Part shown: one piece after another, positions 21,020-56,510 of the stretch
Layout: each line of letters begins with the position of its first letter
Position numbering within the stretch: the stretch's first letter is position 1
Origin: Alphaproteobacteria bacterium
Lineage (GTDB): Bacteria > Pseudomonadota > Alphaproteobacteria > UBA3830
Assembly (NCBI GenBank): GCA_017649895.1
Contig: JAGCFW010000003.1
Location: 1 to 64,000, forward strand
Length of the DNA stretch: 64,000 nt
Direction: 5' to 3'
Position numbers and translations under genes: made by a program
Notes under the pieces: model-generated
Database searches by the model: none
The model's input: the letters and a program-made list of their open reading frames with translations, nothing else
What the model was told of the DNA's origin: nothing

Positions 21020-21081
21020 TTTTTCAATCAAAAATATAAAAATTCCCGTATATGATCGACAGACATAAAATATCGTGTTTT

Positions 21082-21142
21082 TACCAAATTACCGAACAAA
21101 TTATTACTATTTCACCGATTAAAAATCTACCAAATCACCGAA
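21082..21142 (+). promoter_or_regulatory. Triple 15-bp iteron array upstream of ATPase copy 2
   Basis: Repeats start at 21082, 21105 and 21128, again exactly 23 bp apart. They read TACCAAATTACCGAA, TACTATTTCACCGAT and TACCAAATCACCGAA. The array ends 57 bp before the ATG at 21200, as in copy 1. The linker bases between units differ from copy 1 while the units are kept, which points to selection on the sites. Confidence 0.75.
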
Positions 21143-21199
21143 TTATTCTTGATTTTTTCTCAAAACTCAGTAGAGTATTTATATTGAAAGGAATCAGGC

Positions 21200-40953: not shown

Positions 40954-41436
40954 TTACAGCGACAGTACAAATGCGCAGTTGTATCTCGTATCTCCCGTTC
41001 GAATAATCGGAACTGTGTTTTCCAACATCAGAAGCTCTCCTTGATCCTCTATCTCAGTTGGAAGAAAGTATTTCTGACCGATCGGCAGGTCATCATTTGT
41101 TACGGTATTTAGAAATAACCCGAACTCTCTCACCGTGTATCCGTTGCCGTCTGAAAAATCAAATTCTGCTGAAATATATAAATTATTCGTTGGAGTTTGA
41201 GATATTGTCCAACGTCCCGAGGGTGTTACTAAGTCTCCTTGATCATCTGCGTTTACGAATTGAACATTGTCGATCACTCTTCGTCCGATTTCTCGAAACA
41301 GTGCCGTCTGAGTGGGATTTTCATTCACCTTTGTCGTAATTTCATCGCTTTCGCCTTGTCCCCAAGCTATAAACAACGGACATTGCTTGATACTCCGAGC
41401 CATTCCCGCTCTTCCTGAAATTGTTACTATCGCCAT
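40954..41436 (-). CDS. Baseplate-distal tail protein
   Basis: 160 residues, FIAWGQGESDEITTKVNENP, then ISAEFDFSDGNGYTVREFGL and TGDTRYNCAFVLSL. The REFGLF block recalls the N-terminal (collar-like) domains of P2 gpH-type fibre proteins. The rest of a fibre is missing, so it may be an adaptor. Located between gene I and the DUF4815 gene. Confidence 0.6.
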   Translation of the reverse strand: MAIVTISGRAGMARSIKQCPLFIAWGQGESDEITTKVNENPTQTALFREIGRRVIDNVQFVNADDQGDLVTPSGRWTISQTPTNNLYISAEFDFSDGNGYTVREFGLFLNTVTNDDLPIGQKYFLPTEIEDQGELLMLENTVPIIRTGDTRYNCAFVLSL

Positions 41437-41439
41437 GCT

Positions 41440-42654
41440 TTACTCCACCATCTTGCTGTAATTACTTTGTTGATTCCACGGCACATCGAAATGTCTGTGG
41501 TCGTGCCATGTGTTGTTGCCTCTGTATTGCCCATTTATTCCATGAAACACCTTATCAGTCTTTGATACTTGCGAATCCAATTCCGATTCGTAGACAGAAT
41601 TCGCAGTATAAGTAACGTTCGTTGTTCCTGTTTCATAGTTGTAGGTTCCGTCGAAAATCACATCTTCAAATCTGCGAATATCTATCATTACATTGTCAGG
41701 CCTGATCGCAGTTTCGGACAGATAACTGAAGCCAAGAATGAATTTTGAGTCGTTTTTGTTTTCGTAACTTCCCGAAAAACAGCTTTGTCCGTCTTCCAAA
41801 ACAGAATCCGACAGCACAATCATTGCTCTTGAAAACGTGTTAAGTCTGATTAAGTAATCAGGAACGTTTCCTATCGGCTCCGCGTTTTGAGCTACCTTAT
41901 TCGCTCTGTATATATTGTGTTCGGTAAGCTGTCCGAAGTTCGTATCGTCCAAGACTCCGAAGCTCAATTTGAAGGTATCTTCGATTTTCGCAAAGCTAAA
42001 TTTGGCTGCGAAGTTGAACTTGTTTATGTTGTAGTTCCCAAATGATGCATCACATCTAAGCTTCTTTCCGAAGGATAATTTTAACGCGCCGTTGTAAATT
42101 CCCGAATGATCAGAAAGTAAATCACCCCAACTGGAACCGTCCAGCACAAACCGTCTGATATCGTAGTCATTGTTGTACATTCGAGTCAGCCGAGATCGTA
42201 CTGGAGCAGCAAGTTTAGCAGTTTCCACAATTTTATCGATCAAGGTGCCGTCGGGTATTTCATCGAATCCAACTTGAAATTCCGAAAAATGCCTACCGAC
42301 TTCCTCTTCTTCAATCTTGATATTTGTTAAGCCATACCAAGAAAGTACTTGCCGAAGAGAATACGGAGTACCAGCCATTCTGTGGAATTTAAGACCCTCG
42401 ATAATCCTTTGTTTAAAGTCATCGACATTTATTTGAGCTAAAGAATATTCCCAGCTCAAAGTCAGATTGAGATTGCCCGCCGCCTTGGTTTTAAATCCGG
42501 ACAGAATAGTCGGATTCACATTGTAAACAATCGCTTGCTCAAGGGCTTTTTCTAATTCTGTCGAATTACCTGGCAGCAGGGTGACCCTGCACTCAGTATT
42601 ACGCTGCGGCAGAAAGTTTCTGCACCCTGTATTACGCTGCGCTAGCTCATTCAT
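41440..42654 (-). CDS. Baseplate/tail protein I (P2 gpI-like) with repeat insertion near the N-terminus
   Basis: 404 residues from the ATG at 42654, which overlaps the gene J stop as ATGA. LLPGNSTELEKALEQAI, then FKTKAAGNLNLTLSWEYSLA, FHRMAGTPYSLRQVLSWYGL and DYDIRRF are gpI blocks. Between MNEL and LLPGNST lie about 21 extra residues with the duplicated phrase QRNTGCR/QRNTECR, encoded by two tandem 33-bp repeat units. The C-terminal ~180 residues (from FVLDGSSWGDLLSD) are a phage-specific extension beyond the P2 protein length of about 176. Confidence 0.8.
   Translation of the reverse strand: MNELAQRNTGCRNFLPQRNTECRVTLLPGNSTELEKALEQAIVYNVNPTILSGFKTKAAGNLNLTLSWEYSLAQINVDDFKQRIIEGLKFHRMAGTPYSLRQVLSWYGLTNIKIEEEEVGRHFSEFQVGFDEIPDGTLIDKIVETAKLAAPVRSRLTRMYNNDYDIRRFVLDGSSWGDLLSDHSGIYNGALKLSFGKKLRCDASFGNYNINKFNFAAKFSFAKIEDTFKLSFGVLDDTNFGQLTEHNIYRANKVAQNAEPIGNVPDYLIRLNTFSRAMIVLSDSVLEDGQSCFSGSYENKNDSKFILGFSYLSETAIRPDNVMIDIRRFEDVIFDGTYNYETGTTNVTYTANSVYESELDSQVSKTDKVFHGINGQYRGNNTWHDHRHFDVPWNQQSNYSKMVE
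42576..42641 (-). repeat. Two tandem 33-bp palindromic repeat units inside gene I (copies E, F)
   Basis: Each unit, on the minus strand, has a head GCAGCGTAATACxGxGT of about 18 bp followed by a perfect 15-bp palindrome with seven-base arms: GCAGAAACTTTCTGC in E (42609-42641) and GCAGGGTCACCCTGC in F (42576-42608). Heads agree while palindromes differ but stay self-complementary. They are read in frame as QRNTGCRNFLP and QRNTECRVTLLP. Confidence 0.75.
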
Positions 42655-43466
42655 ACTGATAACTCCATTTCCAGCAAACGGGCACATTCTGTCTCTGATA
42701 CTGAAATATCAGTCATCGGTGTTAGCAACTGCACATCTTTTACTCCGTCAAGAAACAAATTTGAGATAATCCAGCTCCGCGAAATTGAAACTCCCATGCT
42801 CGCGATTTTTGCAAAAGCTTTTCTGAATGATGTTTTGATCGTGCTTAAAAATTCTATTGGAGTAGATGACATCAAACTGATTTTCGCTCTCACATCAATA
42901 TCGATTAAATTACAAGGAATGACTTGAACTGTATCCGTCAGCATTCGAATATCATCTCGTTGCATATAATTATTGACGGATTCAAGCAGATCATCCGAAA
43001 CAACTCCGTTGTTTTCTTTCGAAAGAATCGAAATTCTCACCAAGCCCGGCTCAGGTGAGTCTGCATTGGCTTCTTTCACTCTCGTATCAGCATTTAGCGC
43101 ATGAAATATATAAGCCGCCTTACTACCAGCCGTTGACCAACCTTCGATTTTCGCTTTCGTTCTTTTCCTCAATTCATCGTCGGTTTCGTTTTCCTTTCTT
43201 TCGATTCCGTAGAGTACAGCTAAATTATCAAGATCACTTCCTGTCGCGAAAGCCAGCAAATTAGATTTTGCGACCTGATTAATCCTTTGACGCAGCAATA
43301 ATTCTCTGTAAGCCGCGACTTCGAACAGTTTAATAATCGGGTCACTCTCAAGGTAAGCGGTAAACTCGTTGTTGATTTCAACGAATCGGTCTTTTATTTG
43401 GTTTATAATCTCAGAAAAGCTTAACTCTTCTATAATTTGAGGCGTTTCCAAGTCAGATAAGTTCAT
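42651..43466 (-). CDS. Baseplate assembly protein J (P2 gpJ-like)
   Basis: 271 residues. LETPQIIEELSFSEIINQIK, FEVAAYRELLLRQRINQVAK, LDNLAVLYGIER, then LPEPGLVRISIL-type (SPEPGLVRISILSKENNG) and ARLLEMELSV mark the baseplate J family, whose wedges surround the hub. It overlaps W (4 bp) and I (ATGA). Confidence 0.92.
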   Translation of the reverse strand: MNLSDLETPQIIEELSFSEIINQIKDRFVEINNEFTAYLESDPIIKLFEVAAYRELLLRQRINQVAKSNLLAFATGSDLDNLAVLYGIERKENETDDELRKRTKAKIEGWSTAGSKAAYIFHALNADTRVKEANADSPEPGLVRISILSKENNGVVSDDLLESVNNYMQRDDIRMLTDTVQVIPCNLIDIDVRAKISLMSSTPIEFLSTIKTSFRKAFAKIASMGVSISRSWIISNLFLDGVKDVQLLTPMTDISVSETECARLLEMELSV

Positions 43467-43798
43467 ATCACCAAATTCTCCAAAACGATTTTTTCTTGGG
43501 TAATCAGATACTTTCCGCTCAGCGACAGAGTTATTTTCCCCTCTTTGATCGAATTGATCGTAATTTTTTCCAACTTAAATCTCGGCTCCCATTTGTCTAT
43601 GGCTTCGGCTACCGCGGCGTAGATTCTGGGAATTAATTCCCGATTTACAGGTTGATCGACCAACTCAAATAGGTGCGAACCATAATCTCGGCACATCACT
43701 CTTGAGCCTATCGGAGTGGTTAATATATTAACCAAAGATTGCTTTAAATGCTCTAAATCGCTCAAATATTGTCCGTTTTCACTGCTAACACCCTTCAT
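43463..43798 (-). CDS. Baseplate wedge protein W (gp25-like)
   Basis: 111 residues from the ATG at 43798, where GGAGGGCTCCG gives good spacing and the ATG overlaps the V stop. An in-frame ATG 24 bases upstream is less likely. SDLEHLKQSLVNILTTPIGS and RVMCRDYGSHLFELVDQP are diagnostic of gpW/T4 gp25 wedge proteins. Confidence 0.9.
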   Translation of the reverse strand: MKGVSSENGQYLSDLEHLKQSLVNILTTPIGSRVMCRDYGSHLFELVDQPVNRELIPRIYAAVAEAIDKWEPRFKLEKITINSIKEGKITLSLSGKYLITQEKIVLENLVI

Positions 43799-44364
43799 CG
43801 GAGCCCTCCGCTGCATTTGCACAAAGGAGGACTGGTCGTAATCGAACCTGAACTGAGAGAAATATTTGAAGAAGAGATATCAATACTCGATGCTCCGTTG
43901 CTCAAACTGATTGAATTTTCGCCCAAACTAATCGTTGAGTTTCCGACTTTCAGCGTAATTCCGTGGTCATCTAATGATATTACGCACTTTTCGCTGATAA
44001 ACTTCAATCCCTTGGAAAATGAGGCTTCGTAATTTTCTGAACCATTTAGTTTCACGTTTTTGTCGGTCGTTAGGCTCAAATTATTCACGTTTTCCGGAAC
44101 TTTGTATGTGTCGTAATGAATTGATCTCAATACAAAAGCCTGAGCCATCTCTCCGTAAGGCGCAAATACCGCAACTTGCTCTCCCTCTGAGATCGGAAGC
44201 CATAACGAAGTGTTTCCCGCGTTCGAAACTATAGGCAGCCAGCCTGTTTTTACTCGACCGATTTCTACTCGAACTTGATCTCCGTCAATTTCAGCGATTT
44301 TGCCCAGCCTAATTATGTTGGCCAACTTCCTTACGACCTCCGAAAATGCAAAACTGTTATCCAT
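43795..44364 (-). CDS. Baseplate assembly protein V / spike (P2 gpV-like)
   Basis: 189 residues. IRLGKIAEIDGDQVRVEIGR, the OB-fold block WLPIVSNAGNTSLWLPISEG, EQVAVFAPYGEMAQAFVL, and a repetitive beta-helix end rich in S, I and L (SISLSNGASSIDISSSNISL) match gpV spikes, whose needle pierces the outer membrane. The end PPLCKCSGGLR has a CxC motif, unlike the usual HxH iron-binding tip. Confidence 0.9.
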   Translation of the reverse strand: MDNSFAFSEVVRKLANIIRLGKIAEIDGDQVRVEIGRVKTGWLPIVSNAGNTSLWLPISEGEQVAVFAPYGEMAQAFVLRSIHYDTYKVPENVNNLSLTTDKNVKLNGSENYEASFSKGLKFISEKCVISLDDHGITLKVGNSTISLGENSISLSNGASSIDISSSNISLSSGSITTSPPLCKCSGGLR

Positions 44365-44824
44365 TTACTACCTCATTATTTATATGCAGAAGATGAGGTG
44401 TCGCTCCTGATTCCAACCAAACGGACTGCCCCAAATGAAATTGATGAGACCACTCGACCATCCAGCAAACGAACGCATCGAACTCAGGCTTAAACGAATC
44501 TCTTGAAATTCCAGTAACCTCTCCCGGAGAAACTGCGCAGTTGAAAGTGTTCAGGTGAACCAAATTCGCAATATTGCAAGACAGGGTTTGGCAAGAGATT
44601 TCGGCGTTTTCGATTGTTGAGTCCACAATGATTCTTGCCTCAAGATTTATGTTCAAAGCCAACTCTCCCGTGGCAGGATCATTGCCCGAGGAAAATCCCG
44701 CAACCTCAAGGCATACCGCCGGAGCTGCCAAATCACAGCGCGGTGCCGGATATATAAAACAGCTCTCTATATCAGGTAATTCCAGGATTTTCGATTTAAT
44801 GTTACTCAATAATGGTTGGATCAT
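44357..44824 (-). CDS. Head-tail region protein, possible tail terminator
   Basis: 155 residues. MIQPLLSNIKSKILELPDIE, LNINLEARIIVDST, CQTLSCNIANLVHLNTF and the end SGATPHLLHINN. Length, opening and position between the lambda-Z-like gene and V resemble Mu gp37 or tail-terminator-type proteins. I cannot assign it firmly. Overlaps both neighbours. Confidence 0.5.
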   Translation of the reverse strand: MIQPLLSNIKSKILELPDIESCFIYPAPRCDLAAPAVCLEVAGFSSGNDPATGELALNINLEARIIVDSTIENAEISCQTLSCNIANLVHLNTFNCAVSPGEVTGISRDSFKPEFDAFVCWMVEWSHQFHLGQSVWLESGATPHLLHINNEVVNG

Positions 44825-45342
44825 TTTCTTCTGCCCATTTTTCTAATTTCATAAAGAAATCGCTTTTCAAAAACTTTTGCGACTTCCGCTCCGATCAAAT
44901 ATTCAATGCTTCTTACTGCGTCATCAAAAATTGAAATTGTTACTGATTTTACAGGGGTTCTTTTCTTTGTCGTCCTTCGATAAACTCCCGATTTCCCTCC
45001 TTTTTTGAGAGTCGCGATGAATGCGTGTGGATAAATCTTACCTCCTGCCGAAACTCCAATTGGAGTCTGCCTGACACCGGATAAATCCTTCACAAATACG
45101 CTTTTGAATCTGCATACTAATTGCGCCTGAGGATTTTTTCGATTGGCTCTTCTTATCGAAATGCGATCCCGAATCAGCTTTAATTTTACTCTCTTTTGAG
45201 CAGATATTTCTTTCGACAAATGACCTTTCAGCCATTCCGCTGTTCGATTCAATGCGAAAATAGTCGCAATCAAAGCTTGCTCAGGCAAAGCATCAATCGC
45301 TTTTATTATATTGTCGGTCTGTTTTTGAATTGATGGCTTCAT
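44821..45342 (-). CDS. Minor tail protein Z / virion morphogenesis protein
   Basis: 173 residues, basic. ALPEQALIATIFALNRTAEW, RISIRRANRKNPQAQLVCRF and GVSAGGKIYPHAFIATLKKG match lambda gpZ-like (and Mu gpG-related) proteins that complete the head-tail junction. Overlaps the next gene by 4 bp. Confidence 0.75.
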   Translation of the reverse strand: MKPSIQKQTDNIIKAIDALPEQALIATIFALNRTAEWLKGHLSKEISAQKRVKLKLIRDRISIRRANRKNPQAQLVCRFKSVFVKDLSGVRQTPIGVSAGGKIYPHAFIATLKKGGKSGVYRRTTKKRTPVKSVTISIFDDAVRSIEYLIGAEVAKVFEKRFLYEIRKMGRRK

Positions 45343-45344
45343 AT

Positions 45345-45659
45345 CTACTCACCAATTAAAACCGCATTGAACTTCCACATTTGAGTGATTCCGTCCATTA
45401 AGGGTTCTTCGAAAATCTTGTATCTTCGATCATTAACCAAGATAAAATCGCCAATTCTCGGAGTAGCATCTGCCGACTTGATCGAAACTTCCGCTACTTG
45501 CTCAACAACTTGAGAATCTCCTAAATCATAGGGATTTTCAGGCTGCTTAATTACAGCAATAACTTGCTTCGTTTCACCGTTTCGAGATCTTATCGTTACT
45601 TCCTGTCCCAAGTGATCAAATACATCGTTAATTGCTGTAATTACAGTATTTTTAAACAT
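45345..45659 (-). CDS. Head-tail joining protein (lambda gpFII-like)
   Basis: 104 residues. VTIRSRNGETKQVIAVIKQP, VSIKSADATPRIGDFILVND and a C-terminal FNAVLIGE agree with small lambda-FII-like adaptor proteins binding to the head connector. Start lies at the major capsid stop. Confidence 0.7.
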   Translation of the reverse strand: MFKNTVITAINDVFDHLGQEVTIRSRNGETKQVIAVIKQPENPYDLGDSQVVEQVAEVSIKSADATPRIGDFILVNDRRYKIFEEPLMDGITQMWKFNAVLIGE

Positions 45660-46663
45660 TATGCAGCCGTTAGTTTAACCAACACTCCCGGTCTCAAGCA
45701 CAGCGGCAGTGGGTTAGATTGCGTGTGCAGCTCCGTGCCTCGATCGAACTTCCTCGGACACTGTTTCGCGTAAAGCGGTAATCCCAAAGTGTTTACGGTT
45801 TCGTTGAAATCCGCAGGTGCAAAGTAAGTCACAAAACTCTCTGCCGTACCCGTCGGGAAACAATGACCTTCACCGGAGGCAATAAATCTTCGCGTGTTTC
45901 CGTCAGGATCAGTGGCTTGGCCTCGGTATTCCTCGAAAGTTATTCCGCCGAAAGTAAATCCTGATCTCATATCGTTTCTCAGTGCCGCGCCTTCTTCCCA
46001 TCTCTCATAAGCCTCTTTCACTTTTGAATGAGAGGTCAGAGCATCGAAAAACTCAGGAGAAACCAAACAATGAACGCCGGTCATGAACTCGCCTCGAAGA
46101 TTATCTTCAATATATCTCAGAACTTCCAAACACTTTTTCTTTACATCGGTTGAGGCTGTTCCAAGAGCAAAGTTTACGGTTTTCGGCGTAATCTCAAACT
46201 CATCAAACAAATTGTACAAAGTGCTGCCGTCAGCGTCCAAAATGTTGCCCTTCAACGCTCCCATACGCAGATGCTCGAGGGTTATTGCGTGTTTATTCCT
46301 CATGGACTGCAGGTGATCAGTGACCACGTTGGCCATAGCTTCAAGTTCGTTTTCCGTGCCAAAAGCTCGGATTCCCTGGATTTCCTCCGGCAAAATAACA
46401 TCATCGTGAGGAATATGCGGAATAGTGAACGATCTCATTTTTCTTTTCGTTCTTCCTTCAAAAGTTGCTGTTCCTCCCGGCATTTGAGTCGGAAGTAAAT
46501 TCAATACTCCGTTTTGCTCTTCAACGGCAATATTGCGTGTCCTTACTGATTTTTGAGGAAACAAATTCATCGCTTCCAGCTTTCCGTAAGTGTTAGGCAA
46601 CAAGTTTATGGAAGCCGTCAATGACGTCATATTAAATGCGTCGGTATCGAATGGGTTTATCAT
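45659..46663 (-). CDS. Major capsid protein (lambda gpE family)
   Basis: 334 residues. NPFDTDAFNMTSLTASINLL, LFPQKSVRTRNIAVEEQNG, PRGGTATFEGRTKRKMRSFT-like block, PHDDVILPEEIQGIRAFGTE and the end FDRGTELHTQSNPLPLCLRP are the signature of Major Capsid Protein E. An AGGAGAA site precedes the ATG. Lies just below the decoration protein. Confidence 0.93.
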   Translation of the reverse strand: MINPFDTDAFNMTSLTASINLLPNTYGKLEAMNLFPQKSVRTRNIAVEEQNGVLNLLPTQMPGGTATFEGRTKRKMRSFTIPHIPHDDVILPEEIQGIRAFGTENELEAMANVVTDHLQSMRNKHAITLEHLRMGALKGNILDADGSTLYNLFDEFEITPKTVNFALGTASTDVKKKCLEVLRYIEDNLRGEFMTGVHCLVSPEFFDALTSHSKVKEAYERWEEGAALRNDMRSGFTFGGITFEEYRGQATDPDGNTRRFIASGEGHCFPTGTAESFVTYFAPADFNETVNTLGLPLYAKQCPRKFDRGTELHTQSNPLPLCLRPGVLVKLTAA

Positions 46664-46677
46664 ATCGTTTGTTCTCC

Positions 46678-47070
46678 TTATGCGCTTACTCGAGAGACAA
46701 TGCCTCTTGCTTCAAGACCTTTTTTGATTGCTTTTTTCTGATCCGCCGTTGCTCCCTCCGGGAATATCAACTGAGACTCGATAACAATGGCGTCCCTCGC
46801 GACAATTAATCCTTGTTGAGCTGCCGTGCTTGCATCAACATCCTGCAACAACACTCCAATTGGAGTTTCCGTGCCATCGGTCGTGGCTTCTTCATCAGTC
46901 GGATCAATTAAACTCACCTGTTTGTACGTACCGTCAGCGGTTTTTTCTCCGACAATTGTTCCCATCTTAAGATTCTGCCCTTGAGCAATCGTCACTACCT
47001 CTCGGCAATAGTTCTTTTCTGCTTCATATTTGAGCAAACTAAGCAATCTATCTTTTTCTTCTATATTCAT
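46678..47070 (-). CDS. Head decoration protein (lambda gpD-like)
   Basis: 130 residues. NYCREVVTIAQGQNLKMGTI, VTLIDPTD-like (VSLIDPTDEEATTDGTETPI), GVLLQDVDAS and the C-terminal GLEARGIVSRVSA match the HDPD family that trimerises on the capsid surface. The operon order protease, D, E is as in lambda. Confidence 0.88.
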   Translation of the reverse strand: MNIEEKDRLLSLLKYEAEKNYCREVVTIAQGQNLKMGTIVGEKTADGTYKQVSLIDPTDEEATTDGTETPIGVLLQDVDASTAAQQGLIVARDAIVIESQLIFPEGATADQKKAIKKGLEARGIVSRVSA

Positions 47071-47085
47071 TTATCTTCCTCCCTC

Positions 47086-47184
47086 TTATTTATCCCCTCG
47101 CGGAGCGAATTACTGGATGCAACGACTCGTTGCTTCTTATTTATCCCCTCATGGAGCGAATTTACGGATGCAATGTCACACTGC
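47086..47184 (-). repeat. Two tandem palindromic repeat units between decoration and protease genes (copies A, B)
   Basis: Cores are at 47097-47133 (A) and 47148-47184 (B), 51 bp apart, each preceded on the plus strand by TTATTTATCCC. On the minus strand each core is a 15-bp palindrome, then ATCC, a short variable patch and ATTCGCTCCGCGAG. A's palindrome GCAACGAGTCGTTGC is perfect. B's GCAGTGTGACATTGC has one G-T wobble. Copy B lies within the end of the protease gene and provides its last codons and stop. Confidence 0.8.
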
Positions 47185-48190
47185 CTGCACGCTGCTTTGC
47201 TGCTGCTATTACAGGATTCTCTTTTTGCATTTCTTTGTGATAAACATGGCTCGAGATTTCTTCTTTCGCGTCCATCGAGTTCAACAATGCCTCTTTTACT
47301 TGATCCACTGTAAACTTTTGCTCAATGAACTTAGCCAATTTCCTTTCAGCATGAGCCAACTTACAAAGTTGAGCTATTTCCAGAATTTCAGCTCTGTATT
47401 TCTCGATTTCTTCTTCATTCTTTTCTTCCATCTTTTTCTCCTTTTTCATAATTTCTTCCCATGGATTGCACGTTATCTCATCTGCCAGCCCAACTTCGAT
47501 TGCATTTTCTCCGTAATACGTCGCTGCTTGAGTTTTTCGGATTTTCTCGATATCCAAATTTCGATTGCGAGCCACTGTTGATAAGAACATTTCATAAAGT
47601 CTGTTTACTTCCCTTTGTAATTTGTCTTTCGCGTTCTTAGACAGAGGTTCGTGAGGTGTAAGATCGTTTTTCTCCTCACCTGCAAAAATGGTCGTGTACT
47701 TTACGCCCAGCTTCTTATCTGCCTCTGAAATATCAGTATGAGTTGCAATTACTCCAATGCTGCCGACACCGCTTGTTCGATTCACGAAAATCCTTGAACA
47801 CGCCGAGGCTATTGCGTAGGCCGCGGAAAATGCTGAGTCGTTGGCATAGGCGTAAATCGGTTTCTTATCTCTCGCCCCATAAATAAAGTCGACTAAATCA
47901 AAGAGACCTCCGACTTCACCTCCCGGACTATCGATATCCAGCAAAAGCGACTCAACTTTATCGTCATGTAAAGCTCTGGAAACCGATAAGTAAATATCGT
48001 CATAATTCGTGGTGTAGTAAAATCTCTCGCTTCGCTTTGTCAGTAGACCGTAGACTGGAATTACAGCGACGCCGTTATCAATTGAATACTCAGAGAGTAC
48101 AAATGTTCCCTTCGGAATCCACTCAAAATTCAAGGTAGGTTCAAGATATTCTGATGCCACCAATAAAGGTCTATTCGTTACTCGTATCAT
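47162..48190 (-). CDS. S49 family capsid maturation protease
   Basis: 342 residues. LLDIDSPGGEVGGLFDLVDF, then ANDSAFSAAYAIASACSRIF with the nucleophile serine, and TSGVGSIGVIATHTDISEAD leading to the general-base lysine region. This is the lambda gpC/SppA-like protease. The C-terminal ~110 residues are helical and charged (EKKMEEKNEEEIEKYRAEIL), as in protease-scaffold fusions. The last residues AGSVTLHP and the stop are supplied by palindromic copy B. It overlaps the portal gene by 20 bp. Confidence 0.9.
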   Translation of the reverse strand: MIRVTNRPLLVASEYLEPTLNFEWIPKGTFVLSEYSIDNGVAVIPVYGLLTKRSERFYYTTNYDDIYLSVSRALHDDKVESLLLDIDSPGGEVGGLFDLVDFIYGARDKKPIYAYANDSAFSAAYAIASACSRIFVNRTSGVGSIGVIATHTDISEADKKLGVKYTTIFAGEEKNDLTPHEPLSKNAKDKLQREVNRLYEMFLSTVARNRNLDIEKIRKTQAATYYGENAIEVGLADEITCNPWEEIMKKEKKMEEKNEEEIEKYRAEILEIAQLCKLAHAERKLAKFIEQKFTVDQVKEALLNSMDAKEEISSHVYHKEMQKENPVIAAAKQRAGSVTLHP

Positions 48191-49580
48191 CGTTTTCTCC
48201 GTCTAGTACAGAATCAAATTTCAAGCCCATTTTTTGCGCTCTCTCGTTATCGTTTTTGATTTCTTCATCTATCTCTTCCACGTCGTAGCCAAGCTCCGAA
48301 ACGACTTCCGCTCGCGATTTGAAACCGCATCTTACCGCGTTCATTTGAGCTTTCTGTTCTTTCAAAGGATCAACCCATGCAAACCCTTGCGGAATCCACT
48401 TCACCGCAGCGAAGTTCTTATCGTTTGGTATTTTTATAGAGTTCGAAAGGACCGCAAGCTCAATCCATTTATTCCAGATCGGTCGACAAAACTGATATAC
48501 AATCAGATTGTGCTGTAATGCGGTACAACGTCTTCTAAATTCAAGTAATCCTGCTCTGATAGAAGAGTAATTTACTCCCGACAAGTCTCCAGTCAACTGC
48601 TCATAGGTGATTCCCAAACCAACGGAAATTGCTCGCAGTTGCTGTTTTATAAATATCTCGTAAGTACCGCCAACATCTGCCGGAGTAGAAAATTTGATAT
48701 CCTCTCCGGGATCAAGAAATTGCATCGTGCCTGGCTCTAAGCCGTACAGATCAGAGCCTTCTTCTTGTTTAAAGATTTCAGAATCAGGATCAAGTCGTGT
48801 TACAAATCCCGCAAACATTGCTGCTGTTTTCTTTCTCACAAGTTCGGCATCTTCGTATTGATCAAGTTCGTGCAGCTTCAAAAGAACATTTGACAGCCAA
48901 GGTTCTCCCCGAATCTGTCCGGGACGAAGTGGCTTGTATATGTGCAATATTTCGCTTGCCGGAACTCGAATTGACTCGAAGTTCAGCCCTCTGCAAGAGT
49001 CTCCCGGATGCTCTTTATATAAGTAGTACGCAACCTTCTTCCCGAATTTATCAAATTCAATTCCTGACTTTATAATATGTCCGTTCGGAAGAGGATAATC
49101 TTTGCTCGCATCTAAATGTTCGGCTTCTAAAACCTGTAATTTGAGTGGCACTGTGCCATTTTTTCGATCGGTTTTTATTCTTACGAAACACTCACCGCAT
49201 TCGATAACACTTCGGAGTACGAGGGCTTGCAAGCCGTAAAAGTCACAAATACCGGCGACATCCGCTTCGTCCGTCCATTGCAGCCATAATTCTTGTATCC
49301 TTTTTCGAAAATCCGCGTCCCGTGCTTTAGATTGAGGCTTAATTCCTGTACCGATACAATTTGATACTATCGCTTCAACGGCATTTGCCGCATATGGATT
49401 TTTTCTGATAATATCGTGCGATCGGATTCTCAATGTGCTTAAATTTGAGTCCAGAATTGAGTTGATTGATGATCCCGTAGGATACCAATTGTTCAATCGC
49501 TTTCCGTGTCCCGCTCCGTCGTATGGCGTTTGGGCTTTCTTCTTGAACAGATTTGCAATCGAATTGAAAAGTTTCATCAT
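48171..49580 (-). CDS. Portal protein (lambda family)
   Basis: 469 residues. YDGAGHGKRLNNWYPTGSSI, RIRSHDIIRKNPYAANAVEA, IKPQSKARD, LQWTDEADVAGICDFYGLQA and ILHIYKPLRPGQIRGEPWLS are lambda gpB portal blocks. The dodecameric portal is the DNA gate. It overlaps the methyltransferase gene by 4 bp. Confidence 0.93.
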   Translation of the reverse strand: MMKLFNSIANLFKKKAQTPYDGAGHGKRLNNWYPTGSSINSILDSNLSTLRIRSHDIIRKNPYAANAVEAIVSNCIGTGIKPQSKARDADFRKRIQELWLQWTDEADVAGICDFYGLQALVLRSVIECGECFVRIKTDRKNGTVPLKLQVLEAEHLDASKDYPLPNGHIIKSGIEFDKFGKKVAYYLYKEHPGDSCRGLNFESIRVPASEILHIYKPLRPGQIRGEPWLSNVLLKLHELDQYEDAELVRKKTAAMFAGFVTRLDPDSEIFKQEEGSDLYGLEPGTMQFLDPGEDIKFSTPADVGGTYEIFIKQQLRAISVGLGITYEQLTGDLSGVNYSSIRAGLLEFRRRCTALQHNLIVYQFCRPIWNKWIELAVLSNSIKIPNDKNFAAVKWIPQGFAWVDPLKEQKAQMNAVRCGFKSRAEVVSELGYDVEEIDEEIKNDNERAQKMGLKFDSVLDGENDDTSNE

Positions 49581-50509
49581 ATCGCTTCAAAAAAAGTCTT
49601 TTTGATTTGTTCGGCAATTGCTTTAATCACAGGAACACAAACACTGTTCCCCAGTTGCTTGTAAATCTGTGTTTTCGGAACTTTGTTAATCACGAAATAA
49701 TCGGGAAATCCTTGCAATCGCGCGCATTCTCTTTCAGTTAATCTTCTTGGATTACCTGTCGGATGATTCAATAAAATCTTTTCAGGATGACTCAAATATC
49801 GAGCCACTAACGTAACCGTATATGGTTCTGCTTCATCGAAAATTTTATACGAACACCACCCCGTTGATCCGAATTTCATTCTTTCTTGAATATGCGTCCA
49901 TCGGTGATCCGACAGGCAGTAGCTCTCGCCGACGTTTTCCTCAACTATATCTGAAATGTGAGTCTCTATTCCTAACGGCTTCGGAAATTCAAAATTCTTA
50001 CTTTGATCTAAATGCCCGACGATATACAGTCGTCGTCTGTTTTGCGGTATACCAAAATCTTTTCCGCTTAAAATCTCATAATTAACTTTGTATCCAAGCT
50101 GTTTCAAACGTTCTAATATCAGCTGAAATATTTCTCCGTTGTTTATTCCTTTGAGATTCGGAACGTTTTCAAGCAGAAATACTTTTGGCTTTTTCTCTTT
50201 CAAAATTCTTTCGATTTCAAAGAACGCCTGACCTCGTTCGTCATTGAAACCTTTTCTCAGACCTGCAACGGAAAATGATTGGCATGGAAACCCGGCCAAC
50301 AAAACATCGTGATCAGGTATCTCCGTTTCTGAAATACCCCTGATATCTCCGAAAATATTTTCGTTTCCGAAATTTGCGCTGTATGTCGTGACCGCATGCT
50401 TATCGATTTCGCTCGTAAAGACGCAATCAACGTTCTCTTTCTCGAACGCTTGCTCGAAACCAAGTCGGATTCCTCCGATCCCGGCATACAAATCTGCTAT
50501 TTTTATCAT
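49577..50509 (-). CDS. DNA (cytosine-5) methyltransferase
   Basis: 310 residues with all main C5 motifs: I (DLYAGIGGIRLGFEQAF), IV with the nucleophile in GFPCQSFSVAG (C76), VI (LLENVPNL), VIII (QNRRRLYIVG), and IX/X (RRLTERECARLQGFPDYF, YKQLGNSVCVPVIKAIA). A complete enzyme that probably protects phage DNA from host restriction. It is wedged into the head operon between portal and gpW by ATGA-type overlaps on both sides, so it is expressed late. Confidence 0.93.
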   Translation of the reverse strand: MIKIADLYAGIGGIRLGFEQAFEKENVDCVFTSEIDKHAVTTYSANFGNENIFGDIRGISETEIPDHDVLLAGFPCQSFSVAGLRKGFNDERGQAFFEIERILKEKKPKVFLLENVPNLKGINNGEIFQLILERLKQLGYKVNYEILSGKDFGIPQNRRRLYIVGHLDQSKNFEFPKPLGIETHISDIVEENVGESYCLSDHRWTHIQERMKFGSTGWCSYKIFDEAEPYTVTLVARYLSHPEKILLNHPTGNPRRLTERECARLQGFPDYFVINKVPKTQIYKQLGNSVCVPVIKAIAEQIKKTFFEAI

Positions 50510-50724
50510 TCTACTCCCTTGGACGTCGTAAAAACGATCTGCCTTTTGCTTGAAGTTTTGAGGTTCGCTTTGATCTGACTCCGTAATTTGAGCAATTGCT
50601 CCAAATCCGCTCCGGCATACTGCACATGTACATCGCCGTAAGTCACTGAAGTCACACGCTTTCCTGACTGTAATTCCAGAATTGCTTTCTCTATGATTTC
50701 TAATTTTTCGCTGTCACTTATCAC
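50506..50724 (-). CDS. Head-to-tail joining protein W (lambda gpW-like)
   Basis: 72 residues. EIIEKAILELQSGKRVTSVT, then YGDVHVQYAGADLEQLLKLR is the gpW pattern. The protein plugs the portal after packaging. Overlaps terminase and methyltransferase genes. Confidence 0.88.
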   Translation of the reverse strand: MISDSEKLEIIEKAILELQSGKRVTSVTYGDVHVQYAGADLEQLLKLRSQIKANLKTSSKRQIVFTTSKGVE

Positions 50725-52748
50725 AGAAAACTGCTCCTAATTTTCTTAAGTCTTCTTGTAACCTTTGGTTTTTCCTCCGGGTTACTCAGCTCCATAATTT
50801 GCTGCCATTTCTGATCTGACCAACGGTCGATTCCCAGAGCTATTGCAGCTGCTCTTGCATAAATCCTGCAATCTAGGGCTTCGTTTCGATCTCGAATCTT
50901 CTTCCATTCTCTTTTCGGATATCCTCTGACGATCTTGGTAACCAACTGTTCTGCCGTAATTTGTTTGAAATATTCCGTGTTATACTCCGGAAAATGACAG
51001 TAGGGAGCCCCTACAGGCGATATTTGTCCTCCGGACAGGTAAGCGTGACGCTTAACCCCGTATTTCTCTCCGAGAGGGTTATGATTTACCGCTGGCTGTA
51101 TCTTATTTTCTTCCTTGCGTAGCAGATTTTCGCGCCAAACCTCAGGTTTGAGCCAACCGTAGAATTCGCTCTTTAAGAGTGAAACTCCGACCTTCCACAA
51201 TCTCACTCCGTTGGCGATCTTTTTTCCGTGCTTATTTACATCGACTTTGGTCGGAGCATTCAATGAAACCAGCGAATTATCAACTCCTTTTACAGCCATA
51301 ACGTTGTGAATCGGCTGCTTTCTCACCCAATCGTAGACATGCTGCGTCGCAAATCCTGAGTCCACTGCCATCATGTTGATTTTCCGATAAACCCCGTCTT
51401 CGGATTCAAACTCTTCGTTCAGAATTTCAGATAATTTGTTCCACGGAGTCTGAGTTGTTGGATTCCCGTAAATCACTCGATAATCAACTGACCAATTCTC
51501 GTGGTCCTTACCCCAAGCAACGATTTCCAGCTCAATTCGATCATTTTGAACGTCCACTCCGGCAGTGAGAACGTATCCGCCTTTTGGCACTCGACCGATT
51601 TTGTAATTTTCCCTTCGATCAAACAGCAAACCCCAATCCGGCACGTCACCTTTTTCTTCCCAAGGCAGACCCAAGGTCGTATTCGTCCAAGCTTTCAGTA
51701 ATTGGTCATCTTTTTTCGCTGATTCGTAATTGTGATAGCAGGTTTCCCAACTCATCCAGCCAACCGGTGAATACAACGAACTTAAGTGAAAGCCTATCGT
51801 TCTTCCTTTTTGGCGGTGAACTGGCTGTGTTTTGTTTTTTTGTTGAGTGTTTTCTTCCTCGCGGAGCGAATCTTTGGATGCAACATCATGTTGCCGTTGC
51901 GGTCGCCATTCTCCCTTTTGGAGCATTTCTGTTTTGTATCTTTCATCAATATGTTCTTTACAAAATTCACAAACATAAGACACTTTAGAATCAATTTGAT
52001 CATAGTGAATGTTCTCCCACTTCAGCGTTTGATAGCCGTCACAGAACGGACACGGCACGAAATAATACCTTTGATCCGTCTCACTGAATTCTTTCTCAAT
52101 TCTCGATAATCCCTGAATCGTCGGAGTTGAAACGATAAAAATTTTGCGCCTCGTAAAGGTCGCTGTTCTTTGAATAGCCAAAGTAAGAGGATCTCCCTCC
52201 GAGTCTGCATCAGGAGGATAAGCATCAACCTCATCTAAAAAGAGATATTTCACCGGCATTGAGCGAAGTCCAACAGCTGAATTCGCACCTGTAATTACGA
52301 CCTGACCGCCCGGAAATTCCTTACTTTGGACGGTGTTCCCGGAATCTCTGGTTCGCGGATCTTTCACTTTATCTCGCAAGCACGGAGTGTCCTCAATCAA
52401 AGGAGCTAATCGCCCCTTACTCCAGCGTTTCCCCATTTCCACAGTCGGTTGAACAACTAACATCGGTCCCGGTGCTTGATCGATCATGTATCCGATCCAA
52501 TTGTTTCCGGCCTCTGTTCCGCCAATTTGTGCTCCCTTCATAAAAACCACTTTCTCGTACGGTGATGAAGGTGAGAGCGCGTCCATGATTTCCTTTAGAT
52601 ATGGAGTCCTTGAAGTTCTAAACCTTCCAGGCTCTGAGGATGCCGTTCTTGATAACACTCGGTTAGCGTCTGCCCAGTCCGACACGCTGATCACCGAATC
52701 CGGCTTGATTCCTCTTTCAAAAGATTTCAGAAAATCATCGCAGGTCAT
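50721..52748 (-). CDS. Terminase large subunit (GpA family) carrying a repeat insertion
   Basis: 675 residues. ATPase: FMKGAQIGGTEAGNNWIGYM (Walker A-like), VVQPTVEMGKRWSKGRLAP, LFLDEVDAYPPDADSEGDPL (Walker B). Nuclease: AGVDVQNDRIELEIVAWG and AVDSGFATQHVYDWVRKQ. Normally the zinc-ribbon region CEFCKEHIDERYKTEMLQKG-EWRP is followed closely by GRTIGFHLSSLYSPVG. Here about 30 extra residues intervene, beginning QHDVASKDSLRE, which are encoded by palindromic copy C at 51858-51894 and a short lysine/glutamine-rich tail. Confidence 0.93.
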   Translation of the reverse strand: MTCDDFLKSFERGIKPDSVISVSDWADANRVLSRTASSEPGRFRTSRTPYLKEIMDALSPSSPYEKVVFMKGAQIGGTEAGNNWIGYMIDQAPGPMLVVQPTVEMGKRWSKGRLAPLIEDTPCLRDKVKDPRTRDSGNTVQSKEFPGGQVVITGANSAVGLRSMPVKYLFLDEVDAYPPDADSEGDPLTLAIQRTATFTRRKIFIVSTPTIQGLSRIEKEFSETDQRYYFVPCPFCDGYQTLKWENIHYDQIDSKVSYVCEFCKEHIDERYKTEMLQKGEWRPQRQHDVASKDSLREEENTQQKNKTQPVHRQKGRTIGFHLSSLYSPVGWMSWETCYHNYESAKKDDQLLKAWTNTTLGLPWEEKGDVPDWGLLFDRRENYKIGRVPKGGYVLTAGVDVQNDRIELEIVAWGKDHENWSVDYRVIYGNPTTQTPWNKLSEILNEEFESEDGVYRKINMMAVDSGFATQHVYDWVRKQPIHNVMAVKGVDNSLVSLNAPTKVDVNKHGKKIANGVRLWKVGVSLLKSEFYGWLKPEVWRENLLRKEENKIQPAVNHNPLGEKYGVKRHAYLSGGQISPVGAPYCHFPEYNTEYFKQITAEQLVTKIVRGYPKREWKKIRDRNEALDCRIYARAAAIALGIDRWSDQKWQQIMELSNPEEKPKVTRRLKKIRSSFL
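51858..51894 (-). repeat. Palindromic repeat inside the terminase gene (copy C)
   Basis: 37-bp core with the perfect palindrome GCAACATGATGTTGC and the conserved tail ATTCGCTCCGCGAG, on the coding strand. It is translated as QHDVASKDSLRE at about residues 285-297, in the same frame as copy D in the methylase. Confidence 0.85.
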
Positions 52749-53220
52749 CTCTCGATAATTCCTCCAAAACCGTACGAAACTCTTTCATCAATATTTCATG
52801 GATTTCCGATGGGTCATCTACGCTCGCCAACAATGACGAAAGTCTATCGGCAATTGAAAAAATTCCATCCCTTACAATCCGTGCTTTTGAAAAAAACGCT
52901 TTCTTTACCTCATCGATAGGAACTAATTCGCCTGTTTCTGCCTTTACTCTGGCTTCCAACAGTTTCCCTTTTTCAATTTCATTTTTAAGCTTCGTTTTCA
53001 TCAGAAGCTTGTGCATATCGTCTTGAACAAAGTACGTTCCCTGACTCTTTCTCTGTTTCGGCAGGTGAATGTTTCGGTAATTTTCTAACTCGGCATTTGC
53101 GGTGTATTCGTCAATCATTCCATCAATCAGAGTGATTTTTCCCTGCTTAATCAGCTTGGCTGCGTATTGCTTTGAAAATCCCTGACGTCTTGCCCATTCT
53201 GATTGCGAAATTAATGCCAT
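52735..53220 (-). CDS. Terminase small subunit-like protein
   Basis: 161 residues. An N-terminal helix-turn-helix of the Nu1/elements-of-external-origin type (ISQSEWARRQGFSKQYAAKL) is followed by a helical dimerisation part (ARVKAETGELVPIDEVKKAF). It recognises the packaging site. Overlaps the large subunit by 14 bp, as often in lambdoid terminase pairs. Confidence 0.8.
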   Translation of the reverse strand: MALISQSEWARRQGFSKQYAAKLIKQGKITLIDGMIDEYTANAELENYRNIHLPKQRKSQGTYFVQDDMHKLLMKTKLKNEIEKGKLLEARVKAETGELVPIDEVKKAFFSKARIVRDGIFSIADRLSSLLASVDDPSEIHEILMKEFRTVLEELSRDDLR

Positions 53221-54383
53221 TATTCAATATTCCTTTCGGCTGCAACTTCTTCGAAGGTCTTACCTGTTCCTGCGTGAATAACTTGTTGATCAGTTAAATT
53301 CATCCATCTACGAATTATTGTGTCGCAATATTTCGGATCAATCTCCATCATATAGCACCTGCGGCCGGTTTCTTCAGACGCGATCAAGGTTGTGCCTTTT
53401 CCTCCGAAGGGATCGAGAATTACTTCATTTATGTGAGAGCAATCTAAAATCGCATCGGCCGCCAACTGAACAGGTACTTCATCTGCGCGGTAACTCCAGA
53501 CATTAGTTCGATATCTGCCGGTCTCTCCCAAGCCAAAATTATTGGTGTGTTTTGCTTCACCTTTTTTGAAAACGAAGAATAGTTCTAGTTGGTTTTTATA
53601 CAGTTCAGCTTGCTGTTCGATTCCTTTATTCCAAACGCAAAGCTGCTTGTACTCATCAAAGATCGATCTGCCCGCAAACATAATTTCGTACATGCACTGC
53701 CAATTTGTTCCAATAAAAAACAAAGAACCGTCCTTCGTTTTATTTTTGAGATTTTTGAATACCTGAGGCAGTTGCTCTGTTACCGCTTCTTCCTTGAGAT
53801 GCGTAAAGACCATATCGGCAACTTGATCGGACATGAAACGATTCATTGATGCTTCGTCTTTTGCGTCACCGCACATTAAGCGATGATTTCCCAAAATCCA
53901 AATATCTCCGGGCTTTGTGATTACTTGTTTTCCTTCGATATCTTCCTCGAATTCATCCTCTTGAATGGTTTTGTTTTCTTGAATCAATCGATCTACTTCA
54001 CTCAAATCAAATCCCGTTAAATTGAGATCGAAATCCATTCCTTTCAGATCCAGCAACTCCAACCGCAAAAGGTCTTTATCCCATTCTGCCCAATTTGCTG
54101 ACTGATTCGCTACCAAACGAAATGCTTTGATTTGAGCTTCAGTAAGATCATCGGCCAGAACAACGGGAACTTCTTTTAATCCGAGTTTCTTTGCCGCTTT
54201 TAAACGCAAATGTCCATCAACAACGCTGCCGTCGCTTTTTGCGACAATCGGTATTCGAAAGCCGTATTCTTTTATGCAATCGACCATCTTATCGACTACT
54301 GCATCGTTGTTTCGAGGATTGCGAATGTACTCGATTAGCTTACTTGTTTCAAATGTTTGGTACTTTAAGATGTTTTCAGTCAT
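53220..54383 (-). CDS. ParB-like/DNA methylase fusion lacking the DPPY motif
   Basis: 387 residues. N-terminal ParB/Srx-like domain (RNPRNNDAVVDKMVDCIKEY, VAKSDGSVVDGHLRLKAAKK) followed by an amino-methyltransferase-like domain with the SAM loop ILDPFGGKGTTLIASEETGR. In the adjacent paralogue the catalytic motif reads ADVVFTDPPYNVKV. Here it reads ADMVFTHLKEEAV (about residue 194), and about 26 residues are missing. It should therefore bind DNA and perhaps SAM, but not methylate. The rest of the frame is intact, which argues for a kept non-catalytic role or recent loss. Confidence 0.8.
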   Translation of the reverse strand: MTENILKYQTFETSKLIEYIRNPRNNDAVVDKMVDCIKEYGFRIPIVAKSDGSVVDGHLRLKAAKKLGLKEVPVVLADDLTEAQIKAFRLVANQSANWAEWDKDLLRLELLDLKGMDFDLNLTGFDLSEVDRLIQENKTIQEDEFEEDIEGKQVITKPGDIWILGNHRLMCGDAKDEASMNRFMSDQVADMVFTHLKEEAVTEQLPQVFKNLKNKTKDGSLFFIGTNWQCMYEIMFAGRSIFDEYKQLCVWNKGIEQQAELYKNQLELFFVFKKGEAKHTNNFGLGETGRYRTNVWSYRADEVPVQLAADAILDCSHINEVILDPFGGKGTTLIASEETGRRCYMMEIDPKYCDTIIRRWMNLTDQQVIHAGTGKTFEEVAAERNIE

Positions 54384-55711
54384 GCAGCCAACCTTTCGGA
54401 ACTAATCTCTTCGAAGGTCTTACCGGTTGTAGCATGAATGACTTTTCTTCCCTCGCGGAGCGAATTATCGGATGCAACATCATGTTGCTGCCAGCGGCGA
54501 ATGATTACATCGCAATACTTCGGCTCAAGCTCCATCATGCAGCATTTGCGATTCGTTTCTTCAGCCGCAATTAATGTAGTACCCGAACCTCCGAACAAAT
54601 CCAAAACCAAATCACCTTCATCCGAAGCATCTAATATTGCGTCCTTCACCAATGGTAATGATTTAACCGTCGGGTGCGACGCCAACAATTCATCTCTGTT
54701 TTCCGTGGCAAAGCTGTTCATGCCGGGATAATTCCAAACGTTGCTTCGATTCCCGTGAAACGGTTTTTCTTCTTTTCCGTTTTTAAATACAAAAATCAAT
54801 TCATGCTGACTGCGGTAAAAGTTTCCCATGCCTCCAACTCCTTTGTTCCAAATGCAGAGCTGTTTTAAGGCGTCGTAATTCTTCTTTCCCGCCGTAATAA
54901 TTTCGTAGACATGCTTCCAATCCATGCAAACGTAATGAAGAGAACCGTTTTTAGAGAAGGAAGCTAAGTTGTGAAAAATCTTCGAGAGAAATTCGATAAA
55001 CTCTTCCTCCGTCATCTCTCCCGAAGCCATAAGAAATTCTGCGTGTTTGTGTTCTTTGTTAATCCCCGAAATGTTTGAAACCTTCACATTGTACGGCGGA
55101 TCAGTAAACACAACATCGGCTAATTGATCGTTCATCAGCTTTCGAACATCACTTTCGCTTGTTGAATTGCCGCAAAGAAGTCTGTGATTTCCGAGTATCC
55201 AAAGGTCGCCCAACTTGCTCACAATCTTGATTTCTTTCTGCGGCTCTTCATCATTTGATTCAGACGTACTTTCATCCGTTTTTAAAATTTCGCTGATTTC
55301 ATCTAAATCGAACCCTGTTAAACCCAAATCAAAGTTCATTTCCTTGAGTTCTTCGAGTTCTAACTTGAGTAACTCTTCATCCCATTCTGCCCAATTAGCC
55401 GATTGATTTGCAATCAAACGAAATGCTTTGATCTGTGCCTCGGATAAGTCATCGGCTATCACGACAGGAACTTCAGTTAAACCTAATTTTCTAGCGGCTT
55501 TGAGTCTGAGATGGCCGTCGACAACTGTTCCATCGCTTTTAGCGACAATTGGAATTCTGAAGCCAAATTCCTTGATGCAGCCAACCATTTTGTCTACCAC
55601 TGCGTCGTTTTTTCGAGGGTTTCTCTCATATTCAACGAGGTCGACTGTCTTGAATGTTCTGAATTTTAGATTACTATTGATATTTGAGAGATTTTCAGAG
55701 GCGTTGTTCAT
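54380..55711 (-). CDS. ParB-like/DNA amino-methyltransferase fusion
   Basis: 443 residues. The ParB-like domain occupies about residues 20-120 (RNPRKNDAVVDKMVGCIKEF, DGTVVDGHLRLKAARKLGL). The methylase follows, with TDPPY at 203-207 and DLFGGSGTTLIAAEETNRKC near the C-terminus, the beta-class N6A/N4C layout. Such proteins modify phage DNA, probably against host restriction. Near the end RRWQQHDVASDNSLREGRKV contains palindromic copy D; the paralogue at 53220 has RRWMNLTDQQV at the same place. Confidence 0.9.
   Translation of the reverse strand: MNNASENLSNINSNLKFRTFKTVDLVEYERNPRKNDAVVDKMVGCIKEFGFRIPIVAKSDGTVVDGHLRLKAARKLGLTEVPVVIADDLSEAQIKAFRLIANQSANWAEWDEELLKLELEELKEMNFDLGLTGFDLDEISEILKTDESTSESNDEEPQKEIKIVSKLGDLWILGNHRLLCGNSTSESDVRKLMNDQLADVVFTDPPYNVKVSNISGINKEHKHAEFLMASGEMTEEEFIEFLSKIFHNLASFSKNGSLHYVCMDWKHVYEIITAGKKNYDALKQLCIWNKGVGGMGNFYRSQHELIFVFKNGKEEKPFHGNRSNVWNYPGMNSFATENRDELLASHPTVKSLPLVKDAILDASDEGDLVLDLFGGSGTTLIAAEETNRKCCMMELEPKYCDVIIRRWQQHDVASDNSLREGRKVIHATTGKTFEEISSERLAA
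54452..54488 (-). repeat. Palindromic repeat inside the methylase gene (copy D)
   Basis: 37-bp core with GCAACATGATGTTGC and ATTCGCTCCGCGAG. It is translated in the same frame as copy C, giving QHDVASDNSLRE at about residues 408-420. Comparison with the neighbouring paralogue shows a net gain of nine residues at this point. Confidence 0.85.
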
Positions 55712-56337
55712 GATCGAAGACCTTCGTTTACTGCGTTTTCAAGGATTTTTGAGTAATAGTGAGCTAGGTCAACCCCTAAAAAAGCTCTGCCGCTGGCTAA
55801 ATCCCGGGGGGCTGCCCTCCGCTCTCTCAAATTTGAGGAAGGACCCGACTTTGTTTGACTGAAAATTTTTCGACTATTATGCCCATTCAGTGGTTGACCC
55901 TCCTCCTTGGCGATTGCCAGAAGCAAAATAGCAAGAGCATCCGCCTCGTTATCATCTGCAGGACTGAAGCCGAGATTTGACACCGCTTTGACTACGTCAC
56001 TTTTCGTAGCCCTCCCGTGTCCCGTGATGTACTTCTTGATTTCTCCCACTTCACAACCCTCATATGGTATTTTGAGGTCTTCACATACTACTGCGAGCAA
56101 ATACATGAACGCGCCGTATACGTGTCCGGCCTCAGTTCCCAAGTGTCGGCGAACTCTTTCGAAATATACTTTTTCGATTTCATAGCAATCTAAAATCTGA
56201 TACAGCCATTTGATGAATTTTGAGAATCTCTGACCGAACGTCTTATTCTTCAGCTTCTTCGTGCCGCTTATGATCTTTTCATCAGATAAAATTGCATAGC
56301 CTGTGTGCGTACCCAGATCGAGTGCTAGTATGTTCAT
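55708..56337 (-). CDS. RuvC-like Holliday junction resolvase with C-terminal extension
   Basis: 209 residues from MNILALDLGTHTGYAI. An upstream in-frame ATG is rejected because a TATAAT lies between it and this start. RuvC-fold acidic residues are visible at D7, E60 (VYFERV) and in SPADDNEADALAIL (about 125-136). The core ends near residue 145. The last ~64 residues (SSNLRERRAAPRDLASGRAF, LAHYYSKILENAV) are arginine/alanine-rich, encoded by locally GC-rich DNA, and are not part of the usual phage RuvC-like protein. It probably resolves replication intermediates before packaging. Confidence 0.8.
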   Translation of the reverse strand: MNILALDLGTHTGYAILSDEKIISGTKKLKNKTFGQRFSKFIKWLYQILDCYEIEKVYFERVRRHLGTEAGHVYGAFMYLLAVVCEDLKIPYEGCEVGEIKKYITGHGRATKSDVVKAVSNLGFSPADDNEADALAILLLAIAKEEGQPLNGHNSRKIFSQTKSGPSSNLRERRAAPRDLASGRAFLGVDLAHYYSKILENAVNEGLRS

Positions 56338-56358
56338 TGATCGAAAAATTTTCCCTCT

Positions 56359-56364
56359 ATTATA
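56359..56364 (-). promoter_or_regulatory. -10 element upstream of RuvC, candidate late promoter
   Basis: A perfect TATAAT on the minus strand lies about 22 bp before the RuvC-like start. No clear -35 is at the right distance, as expected for a phage late promoter that needs an activator. Confidence 0.5.
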
Positions 56365-56510
56365 CTTAATCAACAGAAAAGGGTATTTTGTTTAAACTTT
56401 TTTGATTTTTTTTCTGATTTGTTTTTTCAGGAATAAAATTCTACGTATTTTAGGTGTATTTTATTAATATTTAGTTAACATCTGACTCATTTTTTTAGAA
56501 GGAAATGTTT

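Follow-up and report, generated by a model that had tools for sequence, protein, structure and literature searches.

The 64,000-nt stretch analysed here (hereafter the window; positions 1 to 64,000 of contig JAGCFW010000003.1, assembly GCA_017649895.1, from an alphaproteobacterium of the UBA3830 lineage) includes a prophage (41440-56373) that harbors a family of short palindromic repeats within and between its genes. At least seven copies are supported by a covariance model or by a perfect inverted repeat, and the family probably has nine copies there. These are very probably short non-autonomous repeats, behaving like Rickettsia palindromic elements (RPEs), that spread as DNA in bacteria and in their WO-like phage; most likely, they are selfish. 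Palindromic repeats that code for protein are on record for Rickettsia, a Wolbachia strain and a few others. Here, such behavior is seen in another alphaproteobacterial group and in phage genes.

The closest named relative of the window terminase is that of Wolbachia phage WO (59% identical), and the head-gene order TerL-gpW-portal-gpC-gpD-capsid is common to the two phages. Judged by its genes, the prophage is thus WO-like and resides in an uncultured rumen-type alphaproteobacterium.

Palindromic repeats in the terminase and methylase genes

Two copies, C and D, had been singled out in a preliminary description of this DNA and both are present as reported, each with its palindromic core. Element C (51852..51894, minus strand; core 51858-51894) lies in terL (50721..52748, minus strand), the gene of the large terminase gpA (Pfam GpA_ATPase, residues 37-281, and GpA_nuclease, residues 317-642), where it supplies residues 285-299 of the ATPase-nuclease linker. 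It is read as QHDVASKDSLREEE, its core as QHDVASKDSLREE. Element D (54446..54488, minus strand; core 54452-54488) is carried by a gene assigned through Pfam to the ParB-like and N6_N4 methylase families (54380..55711, minus strand). It encodes residues 408-422 of this ParB/N6-adenine methylase, just past the Pfam methylase domain (199-403), and is read as QHDVASDNSLREGR, its core as QHDVASDNSLREG. C and D have in common the inverted repeat GCAACATGATGTTGC, made of two 7-nt arms with one base between them. They are also read in the same frame, as previously noted, but this is weak evidence since the arm sequence leaves two of three sense frames open and other copies use other frames.

As had been proposed, the blocks that flank C are normally close in GpA terminases. 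The GxW..GFH spacer has 11-13 residues in 38 of the 42 readable gpA homologues (median 12; the others have 1, 17, 23 and 34), versus 34-37 residues in the element-bearing TerLs, and both of the longest outliers among these 42 homologues contain the element. In a more distant TerL (L198, 72% identical), the 23-residue linker RQLEAAHKSFASRGE is the translation of a diverged unit seen in L058. Besides the interdomain linker, terL carries elements at a second place, a variable loop at about residues 533-583 (site 2). C falls between the two Pfam domains, and an AlphaFold2 model of TerL of moderate quality (mean pLDDT 73, pTM 0.53) gives pLDDT values below 50 at residues 286-315 and 536-581, which are the two element sites. 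A PDB sequence search with TerL gave no match.

Filled and empty sites in related phages

A relative of the window terminase is encoded on 10 IMG/VR contigs, eight of them at 86-95% identity. The preliminary description had pointed out that the adjacent methylase paralogue lacks the segment; this holds, and the true orthologues of L046, L047 and L055 lack it too. The left flank of the methylase site, ATTCGCCGCTGGCAGCAAC, is identical in the filled (window, L035, L117) and empty (L046, L047, L055) versions, and the distance between common flanks is 98 nt in the former versus 68 nt in the latter, a difference of 30 nt. Furthermore, where the DNA repeat is missing, no homologue examined has QHDVAS-like residues; their presence there would have argued against a spreading repeat.

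Other sites vary in the same manner. The end of gpW is empty in the window, L046, L049, L051 and L052, and filled in L048, L050/L055, L114 and L116, where the unit provides the stop codon (KAT*). At the end of the protease gene, there is a single unit in L050/L055 and L115 and there are two in the window and L116. Element positions therefore differ between phages that are more than 90% identical.

Structure of the unit and pairing of its arms

Read along the strand that carries C and D, the unit has a 15-nt inverted repeat (7+1+7) followed by the tag AYYC; four free bases and then ATT or TTT separate this tag from a second module, which can often form a stem (for instance CGC-TCC-GCG, GTCC-TCC-GGAC or CTC-TCC-GAG). 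The single central base of the repeat is mostly G and the repeat mostly starts with GCA or CCA. The unit is about 40 nt long in phage versus about 50-70 nt in host chromosomes. A covariance model (R1) built from 15 family copies was searched against the window and returned five strong copies, every one among its building sequences, including C and D (E about 1e-15). A second search relied on a script that looks for 7+1+7 repeats followed by AYYC.

The arm letters differ among copies but their complementarity is kept: 97% of cells are paired, with 29 double changes, and none of 500 shuffles equals this. For the seven distinct orthologous TerL copies alone, the arms are 100% paired with seven double changes (0 of 500 shuffles), all these shuffle counts taking no account of relatedness. 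In slid controls, pairing drops to 18-69%. Moreover, pairing extends to the pair that flanks the single central base, both in the orthologous TerL copies and in host units (93 of 96). Since a one-base loop is impossible in a hairpin, this suggests that what is kept is either duplex symmetry or the outcome of an arm-matching copying process.

Copies in host chromosomes

The preliminary description placed the repeat in a phage. Prophage genes do carry copies, but the repeat is not confined to phage, being shared by host chromosomes of the family. Further copies are present in the genome and in relatives; their absence from the genome would have counted against the preliminary description. Three genus mates have copies on phage-like contigs, and some genus mates have chromosomal copies too, one of which starts at the base that directly follows a tRNA-Ala gene and extends to the next tRNA gene. 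In L090 (1425-1611), a unit exactly fills the gap between the tRNA-Ala and tRNA-Val genes. Two genomes of the same family, G042 and G043, hold 83 and 75 copies of the core CARCGTGACGYTGSANYC, versus 0 for the reversed control pattern. In another alphaproteobacterial family, G159 (complete, 1.4 Mb) has 140 copies and G262 has 18, those read there being mostly intergenic. When 84,980 species genomes were scanned for the exact pattern, 23 stretches were returned. The whole unit is present in three of them, all from metagenome-assembled genomes (MAGs) of rumen-type alphaproteobacteria; the other 20 are chance matches to the 17 fixed bases.

In G042 and G043, units are found in frame in the genes of valyl-tRNA synthetase (ValRS), cysteinyl-tRNA synthetase (CysRS), the GTPase Der, a TilS-like PP-loop protein and a DapF-RNase H fusion. 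At the element, the ValRS of G043 is about 50 residues longer than that of six relatives: the match to these relatives ends at residue 501-502 and restarts at 553-554, and they have about 10 nt at most between the blocks that flank the extra stretch. In a nucleotide alignment with three of them, the extra stretch begins exactly at the palindrome, and it holds a second unit with other but matched arms, CCAGCTTGAAGCTGG. The Der unit falls between the two GTPase domains, but Der appears to be a weaker case since this linker varies in all relatives. The diaminopimelate epimerase-RNase H fusion is found in both genomes (L177, 8234-9877; L186, 8413-9981), each time with internal palindromic units. 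In addition, L151 (about 5000-5150) contains 27-nt units, each a palindrome with its spacer, in tandem array within a 631-aa open reading frame (ORF), read as repeated GSNVTLEEN.

The frames of the 63 copies located in ORFs of at least 200 aa in G042 and G043 are diverse: 32 are read as QRDVGS, 15 as antisense GSNVTL and 12 as NVTLDP, the rest being 3, 1 and 0. Since copies are read in all three sense frames and some of them give stop codons, it is the DNA that spreads and not the peptide; a single conserved peptide is ruled out by this frame use. The earlier proposal of a mobile or spreading peptide-coding repeat is supported and extended as regards the spreading family and its empty sites, but it needs amending as regards the peptide.

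Proposed origin and spread of the repeats

Copies would spread as DNA into many genes of bacteria and of WO-like phage. Within genes, selection would then retain only in-frame placements in linkers, loops and termini, because several frames are open through the unit and the encoded stretch is predicted to be disordered. Copying probably proceeds by recombination of the host or of the phage, or by template switching that replaces local sequence, and not by way of a linked transposase. Local replacement and the letters shared at the left edge, GCAAC for site D and CAA for the portal gene, suggest annealing or template switching.

Several observations weigh against this reading or restrict it. 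Movement itself was not observed: there are only presence/absence differences between close relatives and no copying event. Relatives do lack the segment at site D and in the TerL linker, as the preliminary description expected, but at site D the element puts 42 nt in place of about 18 ancestral letters and is thus not a plain insertion. The portal unit of a prophage remnant in G042 also replaces sequence, with substitutions and a net gain of 6 nt versus the empty allele. No target-site duplication, the mark of a miniature inverted-repeat transposable element (MITE), was seen by eye at sites D, gpW and ValRS. The TerLs of L046 and L047 have no palindrome, yet their linker is still enlarged, which likely reflects loss of the palindrome. 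In the own MAG of the window (1.1 Mb, 79% complete), every clear copy is within the prophage and none is elsewhere, and G042 and G043, where copy numbers are high, are draft genomes in fragments. Finally, in about 660 kb of G042 and G043, ORFs of at least 150 aa hold 65 of the 106 copies whereas random points would give 85 +/- 4. Copies are therefore rarer in coding sequence than random placement predicts, and coding sites are avoided although they still hold the majority; the idea that they are favored is ruled out.

The pairing of the arms, which persists even in orthologous copies and includes the innermost pair, unpairable in a hairpin, points to duplex symmetry. It could be that of a functional phage RNA or DNA element (RNA processing site, antiterminator or protein-binding dyad) kept by selection in the late operon, for which the location of main-type copies on the coding strand, at gene ends and directly 3' of a tRNA gene would also argue. 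However, such an element is unlikely: its positions are not conserved between phages more than 90% identical, site 2 of terL has units in both orientations and the core is dispersed 75-140 times in chromosomes. In addition, Rfam gave no match at the gathering threshold for window positions 41000-56500, which argues against membership in a known structured RNA family.

Mobilization by a tyrosine transposase, either associated with repetitive extragenic palindromic (REP) sequences or IS200-like (RAYT-type system), seems equally improbable. Short hairpin-like repeats are typical substrates of such enzymes and Y1_Tnp genes are present in seven of the 10 genomes tested, but their presence is unrelated to copy number (11 copies in G008, where no Y1_Tnp was found; two copies in G056, which has eight matches). 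Moreover, only one of eight Y1_Tnp loci has a copy within about 1.5 kb, and the frames that contain the intact matches span about 140-160 aa, an IS200-like length. Finally, there is very little chance that the palindromes are made and kept locally in hypervariable loops by mutation bias (template-switch correction of near-palindromes) and do not spread at all: the perfect arms, in which orthologous copies show matched changes, the remnant portal copy of G042 (empty allele plus substitutions and 6 nt) and the common flanking GCAAC at site D would agree with it, but local correction cannot produce an AYYC tag and downstream module common to unrelated genes, nor a core common to phage and host. 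Local template-switch correction may, for its part, be the cause of the arms staying matched.

Phage may also carry copies between host lineages. Contig 118 of G042 (L187) bears a decayed relative of the window prophage, whose portal gene contains the host-type unit CCAACGTGACGTTGGATCC (DQRDVGS). This unit is absent in the window, L049, L050, L114, L116 and L058. The L187 remnant has several host-type units, two of them in the portal gene, one where the reading departs from conserved sequence. From this, host-type units seem to have entered phage genes in the lineage of the G042 remnant, perhaps once decay of the prophage had begun. Tentatively, coding palindromes could form a single pool common to phage and hosts, the phage acquiring and carrying host-type elements in packaging, portal and tail genes; spread would occur by replacement of short stretches (copy-and-anneal), the dyad being kept perfect after arrival. 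Were this the case, phages would be vehicles of protein-modifying selfish repeats between bacterial lineages.

Further copies and other features of the window

Other copies in the prophage were found at gene ends, in site 2 of terL and in a tail gene. Element B (47142..47184, minus strand; repeat search, covariance model) lies at the 3' end of the S49 protease/scaffold gene (gpC-like; 47162..48190, minus strand; Pfam and sequence), which terminates within it; it gives the final residues and the stop codon (...AGSVTLHP*). Element A (47091..47133, minus strand; same evidence) is located between the protease and head-decoration genes, in tandem with B with a 51-nt period.

Site 2 of terL contains a diverged element (51108..51150, minus strand; covariance model), CAAACCTGAGGTTTG...CTGCTACGCAAGG, read as KPEVWRENLLRKEE. 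It also contains an element in the opposite orientation (51040..51078, plus strand), TAAGCGTGACGCTTA ACCC CGTA TTTCTCTCCGAGAGG, detected by the script and by the covariance model (E 4.5e-5). A probable second one (51000..51038, plus strand), GTAGGGAGCCCCTAC...TTTGTCCTCCGGACAG, was recognized by eye, was not reported by the covariance model and is the least certain of all.

Two tandem units encode residues 14-38 of a putative gpI-like tail protein (41440..42687, minus strand), a gene that we identify from its LLPGNSTELEKAL motif and from gene order. The first (42576..42614, plus strand), GCAGGGTGACCCTGC ACTC AGTA TTACGCTGCGG, lies near the N-terminus and was found by the covariance model (E 0.003) and by the script; its partner (42609..42648, plus strand), GCAGAAAGTTTCTGC ACCC TGTA TTACGCTGCGCTAGC, was supplied by the script.

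The paralogous methylase gene without element (53220..54383, minus strand; Pfam and sequence) does not have the DPPY motif region of the first copy (VFTHLKEEA vs VFTDPPYNV), and its product is probably catalytically dead. A C5-cytosine methylase gene (49577-50509) is located between gpW and the portal gene; a palindromic unit occupies its place in L048, L050, L114 and L116. The window also contains other repeats: direct repeats of about 144 nt at 2505-4103, the first four spaced 210 nt, and a 300-nt duplication (5353-5652 and 21059-21358; 86% identical, 15.7 kb apart) with more matched pieces at the same offset.

Comparison with known palindromic repeats

RPEs (Ogata 2000, 2002, as reviewed in PMC2229807 and PMC10969869) are palindromes of 105-146 bp, both intergenic and in frame within Rickettsia genes. 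The likeness to RPEs put forward in the preliminary description is supported as regards behavior. Like them, the present units are scattered through a reduced alphaproteobacterial genome, in coding as well as intergenic DNA, form several subfamilies and lie in frame inside unrelated conserved genes, in linkers and termini, where they are tolerated by the proteins and are lacking in homologues, so that relatives have empty sites. In contrast, the present unit is shorter (about 40-70 nt vs 105-146 nt), is found in phage genes for head, tail and packaging as well as in a different group of Alphaproteobacteria, uses several frames and donates stop codons.

In CGTC-REPs, which include RPE-4, RPE-6 and Neisseria dRS3, the CGTC tag is unpaired, the stem measures 8-9 bp and opens with A-T pairs, and the loop has 4-5 nt (PMC3733652). 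They are short, common in Alphaproteobacteria and partly intragenic, have heterogeneous stems, and no dedicated transposase is known for them (PMC3733652). The present units are also short, partly intragenic palindromes with heterogeneous stems, but they have a 7+1+7 repeat and a 3' AYYC tag instead of the CGTC tag, stem and loop. With the REP/REPIN-RAYT system, they share the nature of short hairpin-forming non-autonomous repeats; unlike it, they lack a GTAG tag and are not consistently linked to a Y1 transposase. Wolbachia palindromic element (WPE) repeats, as cited in PMC3733652, are protein-coding palindromes of another intracellular alphaproteobacterium, a likeness that we draw from their description only.

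The open-licence literature contained no report of such repeats in Holosporales, rumen bacteria or phage genes. By comparison of descriptions, the unit works like RPE/REP-like selfish repeats while fitting neither the RPE nor the CGTC-REP definition, and it is by description that it is set apart from RPEs. Since near-identical phages are filled or empty at one and the same site, the insertion step, the frame filter and the idea of phage as carrier become directly testable in this group.

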